A DNA stretch of 64,000 bases, from NCBI GenBank assembly GCA_017536895.1, contig JAFWCN010000005.1, positions 62,001-126,000 of the forward strand, written 5' to 3'. Each line of letters opens with the position of its first letter. Position 1 is the stretch's first letter. Positions 29,502 through 32,138 of the stretch are shown one piece after another. The notes under the pieces are model-generated. The model saw only the letters and a program-made list of their open reading frames with translations, was not told the DNA's origin and ran no database searches. The translations under genes were made by a program, and so were the position numbers. Source of the stretch: Candidatus Saccharimonadota bacterium. GTDB lineage: Bacteria; Patescibacteriota; Saccharimonadia; Saccharimonadales; Saccharimonadaceae.

Positions 29502-30314
29502 ATGAGTAATTATTTTACGACCAAGGACCCGCTAGATAAGATTATTGCTAGCACCCTTCCTGACGAGAAAATTCTCGAGACTAAACACATCCTTACTGGT
29601 TGGACTAATATTGTCATAGAAGTCACCACAAACAAAGGCGCCTATTTTTTCCGTTTCCCTCGCAACCCTTTTTGGTCCAAAATGATCGTCAAAGATGCTA
29701 CCGTTTGTAACTTTGTCGACGGCAAGACTAGCTACTATACCCCCCAAATGAAGTTGCACTATGACAGCAAAAACCGCCCTTTCTCCGTCCATCAAAAAAT
29801 CGAAGGCTATACCCTGGGCGATAGAATCTATCACTTATCCCACACCGCTCTTACCGGCGCTGCCTATGATATCGCCAAATTCATCAAAGAGCTCTCGAAT
29901 ATCGACCTAAAAAACGCTCCTAGCGCAGTCAAATACCCTCTCTCCGATTTTCTCCATGAACTAGATTATGAGCATTACGACAAACATATCGACGCCGACC
30001 ACAATTACATCAAAAAAACCGAGCAACATAAACTCGTTCACGGCGATCTTAATCTTGGCAATATCCTACTCGATGAGAACGACAAAGTCATTGGTTTCAT
30101 TGATTTTTGTTTTGCTGGCACTGGCAATCCCAATATGGATGTAGCCCGTATGGTTTCCCGCCCCGCTCCCAAAGAATTCGAACAAGCCTTTCTCGAACAC
30201 TTTAGCGACAACCAAGAAATAGAACGCATGAAACTCGCCTGGCAACATATCGACAACGGCTATGCTGACCACATTCGCACTAACTTTCCCGAAATCAATC
30301 TCAATCAATTATAA
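29502..30314 (+). CDS. Aminoglycoside/choline phosphotransferase-family kinase
   Basis: Product of 270 residues with the APH fold: an N-lobe (TNIVIEVTTNKGAYFFRFPR with the likely ATP-binding region), then HGDLNLGNILLDE (catalytic loop, HGDxxxxN) and GFIDFCFAGTGNPNMDVAR (metal-binding Asp). In CPR genomes such kinases may act on choline, ethanolamine, sugars or other small molecules; the substrate is not evident, and antibiotic resistance should not be assumed. The start is 8 bases after a TAAAAT box, probably leaderless. It is followed after 18 bases by the PfkB-aldolase fusion, which has its own -10 box. Confidence 0.8.
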   Translation: MSNYFTTKDPLDKIIASTLPDEKILETKHILTGWTNIVIEVTTNKGAYFFRFPRNPFWSKMIVKDATVCNFVDGKTSYYTPQMKLHYDSKNRPFSVHQKIEGYTLGDRIYHLSHTALTGAAYDIAKFIKELSNIDLKNAPSAVKYPLSDFLHELDYEHYDKHIDADHNYIKKTEQHKLVHGDLNLGNILLDENDKVIGFIDFCFAGTGNPNMDVARMVSRPAPKEFEQAFLEHFSDNQEIERMKLAWQHIDNGYADHIRTNFPEINLNQL

Positions 30315-30332
30315 TTATGCTATAATGTGAAT

Positions 30333-32138
30333 ATGAATATCTTAGTGGTGGGAAATGTCATCAAAGACATCTATCTGAATCTCGATTCTCGCACCGAAAA
30401 TTTTGAAACCGACAAAAACCACATCAAATGGTTAAATCTAGCCTTCAATGCCGAAGAACATTTCTTTTTCAATCGCAATTCTAATTTCGGTGGCGCCGCT
30501 GTTACGCTAGAAGTACTCTCCAGAATGAATCTTCCAACCACCATTACGGGCTCTGACCTCAAAATGACTGATGACGGCTTCATCACCAATCAATCAGCCA
30601 AAACCTATCGCTATATTCTTGTAGCCGACGGCAACCCTTGTTACATCGCTCCTACCAATCACGAAATCACCAATTTCGCTACCCCAGACACCTTCTACGA
30701 TTATATTTATATTGATCGCTCTGCCTTACTAAGCCCTACCGCAGTCACAAAAATATCTTCGTATCTCGATCTTTCTAAAAACACCAAATTAATCACTTAT
30801 CTCAAAGATCAAAACGATACCAACCTAAACCAACTCGCCCCACAGTCCGACTTAGTTTTCTATGAAACCAAAAAGCCGGATATTCCACCCGAAAAGCTCA
30901 TCCATATCTCAGAGACTAATCTTTCCTATCAAAACATCCACGAAGTCATTTCCGTCGAACGTATTGATATGATGACACACCTCTCAGCCTATTCCATCGC
31001 TGCCGCTACCATTCTCGGTAGCTTCATTATCGGCAAATCCGTCGAAGAAAGTCTTCGTCTTGCTCGCATTAATGTCGAAAACTCTACTCTAAATTCCACT
31101 TTAAATCTAGCAGAGCTTCAAGAAATATCTGACAAACAAAACCCCGAAGAAAATCTTGAACTCATTGCTGCAAGCTTAGTCCTTGCCAAAAAAGGCATCC
31201 TCGCCGCCGACGAATCTGGTGGCTCTATCCACAAAAAATTCGAAAAATTAAACATCGCTGATACTTACGAGAATCGCCGCGACTACCGCAACATTTTCTT
31301 TACCACAAAAGATCTCGAAAACTACGTTAATGGCGTCATCCTTTTTGACGAAACCGCCAGACAACAAGCCGATAATGGTCAAAACTTCACCGATTTTCTC
31401 ATCTCTCGTCGCATTATCCCCGGCATCAAAGTCGACCAAGGTCTAGAAAAATTCGAAAACTCCGAAGAGACCTACACCAAGGGCCTCGATGGCCTCGACA
31501 CACGCCTTCGTGAATACTACCGACTAGGTCTTCGTTTCGCCAAATGGCGCGCTGCCTTTGAAATCCATCTCGACGAACAAGGCAACATTCTTACTCCCAC
31601 TGATCACGCCATCACCGAAAACTGTCGCATTCTTGCTGAGTATGCCAGCGCCTGTCAATCTGCCGGTCTTGTTCCAATTGTCGAACCCGAAGTAGTCTAC
31701 GACGGTTATTATAGCATCGACCAATCTGCATCGATTACAGGTAAAATTCTCGACGAACTAATGAAAAAACTCGCCGATTACCATGTCAATCTTCGCGCCT
31801 GTATTCTAAAAGTTAACATGATTATCGCTGGTAAACAATTCGAAAACCAATCTACTCCCGCAGAAGTCGGCACCAAAACTGCCGAAGTTCTAAAAAACCA
31901 TCTCCCCGAAGATCTCGCTGGCGTCGTCTTTCTATCTGGTGGCCAAACTCCCGAGCAGGCCACTGATAATCTCCGCGAAATCGAAAAAAACGGCCCCTTC
32001 CCTTGGCCAGTCACTTTCAGTTTTGCTCGCGCCCTCCAAGATCCTGCTCTCTATGCCTGGAATGGTGACAATAATAACGTCGAAAAAGCCCGCCAAGCTT
32101 TTCTTGACAGGCTTATCGCTAATACCGAAGTATTATAA
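30333..32138 (+). CDS. Fusion of PfkB-like pseudokinase and class I fructose-bisphosphate aldolase
   Basis: Product of 601 residues. Residues 1 to about 255 have the PfkB/ribokinase layout (ILVVGNVIKDIYLNL, FGGAAVTLEVLSRMNLPTTITGSD). The GAGD anion-hole and base motif is replaced by SAYS near residue 217, directly before the usual hydrophobic helix and GKSVEESLRLARIN, so kinase activity is unlikely. Residues about 270-601 are a class I aldolase with GILAADESGGSIHKKF, KWRAAF, and ILKVNMIIAG with the Schiff-base Lys near residue 492. The start is ATG 30333, 6 bases after TGCTATAAT; a GTG two codons earlier overlaps the discriminator. It abuts rplY tail to tail with no spacer. Confidence 0.88.
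   Translation: MNILVVGNVIKDIYLNLDSRTENFETDKNHIKWLNLAFNAEEHFFFNRNSNFGGAAVTLEVLSRMNLPTTITGSDLKMTDDGFITNQSAKTYRYILVADGNPCYIAPTNHEITNFATPDTFYDYIYIDRSALLSPTAVTKISSYLDLSKNTKLITYLKDQNDTNLNQLAPQSDLVFYETKKPDIPPEKLIHISETNLSYQNIHEVISVERIDMMTHLSAYSIAAATILGSFIIGKSVEESLRLARINVENSTLNSTLNLAELQEISDKQNPEENLELIAASLVLAKKGILAADESGGSIHKKFEKLNIADTYENRRDYRNIFFTTKDLENYVNGVILFDETARQQADNGQNFTDFLISRRIIPGIKVDQGLEKFENSEETYTKGLDGLDTRLREYYRLGLRFAKWRAAFEIHLDEQGNILTPTDHAITENCRILAEYASACQSAGLVPIVEPEVVYDGYYSIDQSASITGKILDELMKKLADYHVNLRACILKVNMIIAGKQFENQSTPAEVGTKTAEVLKNHLPEDLAGVVFLSGGQTPEQATDNLREIEKNGPFPWPVTFSFARALQDPALYAWNGDNNNVEKARQAFLDRLIANTEVL

Follow-up and report, generated by a model that had tools for sequence, protein, structure and literature searches.

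The gene at positions 30,333 to 32,138 of the window, the 64,000-nucleotide stretch of DNA that was analyzed, joins a kinase-like N-terminal half to a class I fructose-bisphosphate aldolase (FBA), which raises the question of what a sugar kinase fold does when it is tethered to a glycolytic enzyme and appears to have lost its catalytic motif. The window derives from a MAG of 0.84 Mb that is 99% complete, and its close named relatives are Candidatus Saccharibacteria, mostly from the gut of ruminants or horses; members of the large genus to which it belongs are tiny, host-dependent gut bacteria. The open reading frame lies on the forward strand, begins with an ATG at 30,333, ends with a stop codon whose last base is 32,138 and encodes 601 residues. 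Both the fused gene and its degenerate GAGD motif, as described in an initial annotation made from the letters alone, are confirmed. A chance or frame artefact was ruled out, as the N-terminal domain (N domain) is present in 40 of the 43 genomes of the genus that were sampled, and as the fusion gene, where its flanks were compared, usually adjoins rplY. Directly upstream, on the same strand, positions 29,502 to 30,314 encode an APH-type phosphotransferase family protein (PF01636). The two halves of the fusion are as follows.

30,333-31,139, forward strand: degenerate PfkB/ribokinase-fold domain, residues 1-269 (AlphaFold, VIA-align, hhalign).
31,155-32,129, forward strand: class I fructose-bisphosphate aldolase domain, residues 275-599 (Pfam, NCBIfam, catalytic residues intact).
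31,809-31,811, forward strand: Schiff-base lysine K493, equivalent to K229 of rabbit aldolase (residue alignment).

The C-terminal half is a member of the class I FBA family by every measure applied. Its 325 residues match PF00274 with an E-value of 1e-106 and score 389 bits against the NCBIfam class I FBA model, for which the cut-off is 250, and the catalytic set is complete (D293, K366, K404, E451, E453, K493, S535 and R566). The protein passes the family cut-offs (PF00274, NF033379) and keeps the catalytic residues of these enzymes, but it differs from them in its added N-terminal pseudokinase and in ending soon after the barrel. The N-terminal half, of approximately 270 residues, has no match in Pfam or NCBIfam even at an E-value of 10, the cut-off of PF00294 not being reached, and a sequence search of the PDB likewise returned no match. 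A fold search with the full-length protein gave aldolases only, and the N domain was therefore folded separately. The resulting AlphaFold model, built from a 95-row alignment, has a mean pLDDT of 94.4 and is matched by Foldseek to HldA, ribokinase and ketohexokinase with a probability of 1.00; VIA-align superimposes it on ribokinases with Z scores of up to 20.2 (3.3 Å over 242 residues), and a profile-profile comparison by hhalign aligns it along its whole length with intact Saccharibacterial PfkB kinases (probability 99.3, E 2.7e-20). The N domain belongs to the PfkB/ribokinase fold, and the structure prediction upholds the initial reading of a kinase fold fused to an aldolase. With the PfkB/ribokinase family (PF00294) the domain shares the fold (Z of about 20), the substrate-side Asp12, the GG region, the lid and the helix that follows the GAGD loop, whereas it lacks the GAGD, NxxE and TDG motifs, is some 60-70 residues shorter and is missed by the Pfam model. 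When the full protein was modeled (pTM 0.62), no confident interface between the two halves was obtained.

Whether the fold can still act as a kinase depends on the residues that it has lost and on those that it has kept, which map to the following sites.

30,984-30,995, forward strand: SAYS, residues 218-221, the positional equivalent of GAGD, with S221 at the place of the catalytic Asp (profile alignment, 14-sequence alignment, 95 homologues).
30,975-30,983, forward strand: THL, residues 215-217, part of a conserved THL[ST]xxS motif that surrounds the former GAGD site (95-domain alignment).
30,366-30,368, forward strand: Asp12, the Asp that PfkB-fold proteins have on the substrate side (unchanged in all 95 domains).
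30,405-30,494, forward strand: the lid and the GG region (residues 25-54), in which E25, D27, W33 and G54 never vary (95-domain alignment).

An ungapped run between the window protein and the kinase profile pairs S221 with D266, T226 with T271, G234 with G279 and N247 with N292, and an independent 14-sequence alignment also places S221 opposite the catalytic Asp, so that the initial reading of SAYS as the former GAGD is borne out. How widespread this loss is, a point that the initial annotation had left to an alignment of homologues, was determined in 95 N domains from the window's own genus (g1) and its sister genus (g32): GAGD is kept in none of them, and the position of the catalytic Asp is occupied by Ser (78 domains), Leu (13), Asn (2), Thr (1) or Gln (1). 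The initial annotation had also allowed that a different loop might be the true equivalent of GAGD; this was ruled out, since the alignment of SAYS is ungapped and no [GA][AGS]GD string occurs in any of the 95 domains. In the 14-sequence alignment, NxxE and TDG, on the ATP side, have likewise been lost or deleted, and the segment that bears them is shortened. The earlier description of the kinase half as non-catalytic is well supported at the level of sequence, as GAGD, NxxE and TDG are all gone and the domain lacks every PfkB hallmark for which it was tested. The loss of these three motifs makes the ATP sensing that was also suggested for it unlikely.

What has been conserved belongs to the substrate side and to the lid. 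The residues G7, D12, E25, D27, W33, G54, R93 and N247 are invariant in all 95 domains, and residue 216, which corresponds to an invariant Arg in active relatives, is His in 85 domains, Arg in six, Lys in three and Asp in one. Active relatives also have N58, K41 and R119 on the substrate side, and these are changed in the pseudokinase. A basic residue in 94 of 95 domains, set in a motif whose conservation almost equals that of an active site, could indicate surviving kinase or other phosphotransferase activity at an unorthodox site, for example one that uses His/Arg/Lys216, and pseudokinases of other folds have proved active. We nevertheless regard this as highly improbable, given that all three ATP-side motifs are absent, that the ATP-binding segment is shortened and that S221 is replaced by Leu, Asn, Thr or Gln in 17 of the 95 domains.

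A fused PfkB domain could be mistaken for the phosphofructokinase that these genomes seem to lack. By family search, the window's own genome contains no phosphofructokinase of the PF00365 type, and no match to transketolase (PF00456) was found in 14 genomes of the genus, its own included. A pentose-phosphate bypass has been proposed for other Saccharibacteria (PMC6031116); with no transketolase it is inapplicable here in that form, and a transketolase route around the missing phosphofructokinase was ruled out. The genome does encode one other PfkB, PfkB1, whose GAGD is intact, and a separate PfkB is present in 13 of the 14 genus genomes tested, including its own, in agreement with the initial view that the fusion is not the true answer to the missing enzyme. 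PfkB1 shares about 40-47% identity with kinases encoded next to class II FBA in other genera; class II FBA itself is absent from the tested genomes of g1, g32, g28 and g42 and present in those of g30. In the window's own genome (L001), genes read by eye as rpe and rpiB adjoin PfkB1. The catalytic Asp of PfkB1 is kept in G305 (as GSGD), G034, G003 and G284, and is replaced in two genomes, G232 and G306 (L226, L227), where GAGS stands in place of GAGD; judged by sequence, a PfkB protein has here lost its catalytic Asp for a second time and independently. Both of these genomes have also lost the aldolase, and this co-loss, which counts as one event, would fit a PfkB1 that acts as the phosphofructokinase just before the aldolase, but G284 and G305 have kept an intact PfkB1 and neither of them has a working aldolase. 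The separate PfkB1 is likely to be the better phosphofructokinase candidate, and it would be a mistake to annotate the kinase half of the fusion as the enzyme that these Saccharibacteria seem to lack.

The history of the fusion can be followed across genera. A search of 294 genomes of the order with a profile of the N domain (A1) recovered fusion-length frames in g1, g32, g28 and g42. Elsewhere it gave weaker matches, the frames being 336-361 or about 470-520 residues long, and the eight of these that were read are all intact GAGD kinases, here called PfkB2. Most relatives carry PfkB2 as a free, intact kinase. In g30, a genus of the same family, PfkB2 with intact GAGD, NKEE and TDG is fused to a class I FBA in proteins of 669-678 residues (110 bits against PF00294 and 372 bits against PF00274), and a single genome (L162) encodes an intermediate fusion in which GAGD is present and the Glu of NxxE is absent. 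The fused kinase half of g1, g32, g28 and g42 lacks all three motifs and is mostly about 60-70 residues shorter. Judged by their motifs, these proteins form a decay series that leads from a free intact kinase to the complete g30 fusion, then to L162, to g28 and g42, and lastly to g32 and g1. All strong class I FBA matches within the family reside in fused frames, and in a tree of the aldolases the fused ones all fall on one side of a 99/98 branch. This agrees with a single fusion event, provided that the root, whose position the tree cannot prove, lies among the free aldolases. A free class I FBA adjoins PfkB2 in families f31 and f36, and gene coordinates place the two side by side in some more distantly related members of the phylum. 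The fusion may once have been a bifunctional sugar or sugar-phosphate kinase/aldolase that later lost its kinase activity and retained the fold together with part of the substrate-side cleft. Two further arrangements of PfkB2 were observed: in several genera of the family, class II FBA, PfkB1 and PfkB2 lie in a row (e.g. G101 C1:147385-150714), and in L072, L073, L074 and L078 a free PfkB2 of about 505 residues carries an N-terminal extension of roughly 170 residues, which gave no Pfam match in L072, the one scanned.

Sugar kinase-aldolase fusions are represented by NF047869, an IolC-type kinase with its aldolase, and NF041633, a KHG/KDPG aldolase/sugar kinase, but these contain other aldolases and are named as active kinases, and the intact relatives tested match them weakly, far below cut-off. 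A genetic link between a PfkB kinase and FBA in Saccharibacteria is also seen in TM7x_02415 of Nanosynbacter lyticus, which shares an operon with FBA and has been proposed to be a PfkB-type phosphofructokinase (PMC12815258); it differs in being a separate gene and a kinase proposed to be active. No paper describing a fusion of a PfkB pseudokinase to a class I FBA was found in an open-access library.

The initial annotation took the dead kinase to be a regulator or scaffold of its aldolase, and if this were its sole function, allosteric or structural, the two halves should share one fate. They do so in the 35 of 43 sampled genus genomes that have an intact aldolase, where it is always fused to the N domain and where an aldolase without the domain was not seen. 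A PF00274 match is found in 36 of the 43, and five of the 40 genomes that keep the N domain have the aldolase half deleted or inactivated: in G305 it is degenerate and lacks D33, K107, E187 and K229; in G232 and G306 a short remnant lacks D33, K107, K146, E187 and R303; and in G284 and G005 the N domain stands alone. A family search found no class II FBA in any of the five, and, as these genomes are MAGs of 96-98% completeness, such absences are likely and not proved. G005, which keeps its lone pseudokinase domain, has no match to PfkB, PGI or either class of FBA. On the tree of N domains the aldolase-less state requires four changes, the five genomes occupying four branches. Between G232 and G306 the N domain shows a dN of 0.087 and a dS of 1.13 (dN/dS 0.077). 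For the aldolase remnant the ratio over its first 100 codons, which are clear of rplY, is 0.089; the 3' end of the frame overlaps rplY on the other strand. The selection test rests on this single pair, since dS is saturated in pairs with G284, G305 or G005, and in G284 and G005 the rest of the gene could have been deleted recently, leaving the single domain as a remnant. The two loci, at 3635-4933 of L115 (G306) and 4517-5830 of L117 (G232), encode double pseudoenzymes composed of a dead kinase and a non-catalytic aldolase remnant, and these ratios indicate that the protein is under purifying selection though neither half can be the old enzyme. The fusion of the domain to every intact aldolase leaves a part for it in aldolase regulation or scaffolding; its conservation in five aldolase-less genomes and the purifying selection in one pair argue that it is not merely an aldolase regulator, and make the exclusive form of that proposal unlikely. 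As several species keep the domain after loss of the aldolase, it probably does more than serve its own enzyme. The whole gene is absent from G262, G302 and G017, and so is dispensable in some members of the genus.

Retention of the 5' half could have a simpler cause, which is suggested by the element that precedes the start codon.

30,318-30,326, forward strand: extended -10 element TGCTATAAT, 6 nt upstream of the ATG (sequence).

TATAAT lies exactly 6 nt 5' of the start codon in 56 of the 95 homologues, a spacing that suggests a leaderless transcript of the fusion gene. With a putative leaderless promoter abutting the first codon, deletions from the 5' end would be costly and those from the 3' end tolerated, and the domain might be a structural leftover that has neither ligand nor signal and serves only to let translation begin or to keep the polypeptide folded or soluble; the loss of the ATP site and the many changed substrate-side residues accord with this. 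We consider it a rather poor explanation, as conservation is focused on specific invariant positions (D12, W33, R93 and the THL motif) and is not that of a general core, and as the domain is kept on its own or, in G232 and G306, with an aldolase remnant on which purifying selection also acts.

We therefore favor, with a probability of roughly 0.55, a ligand-binding pseudokinase whose role is not limited to control of the aldolase. It would bind a ligand without ATP and signal to, or scaffold, a partner. The pseudokinase would still close its lid on the ligand, with Asp12 and the basic residue 216 holding what is probably a sugar phosphate or an anionic sugar, a sugar-phosphate-type ligand being possible; the ligand-bound state would then be passed on to a partner, of which the fused aldolase may be one, and at least one role of the domain would be independent of aldolase catalysis. 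A functional precedent, by analogy only, is provided by plant FLN1 and FLN2, PfkB-type proteins that have no detectable kinase activity and form part of the plastid RNA polymerase complex (PMC5405513, PMC3409070); unlike the domain studied here, they are plant proteins and are not described as fused to an enzyme. A metabolite-sensing or scaffolding PfkB pseudokinase with a job outside glycolysis, maintained in some species as a selected double pseudoenzyme, is a tentative extension of this reading. A single bacterial family displays the whole series, from a free kinase through an intact fusion and a conserved pseudokinase fusion to a pseudokinase that has outlived its enzyme partner.
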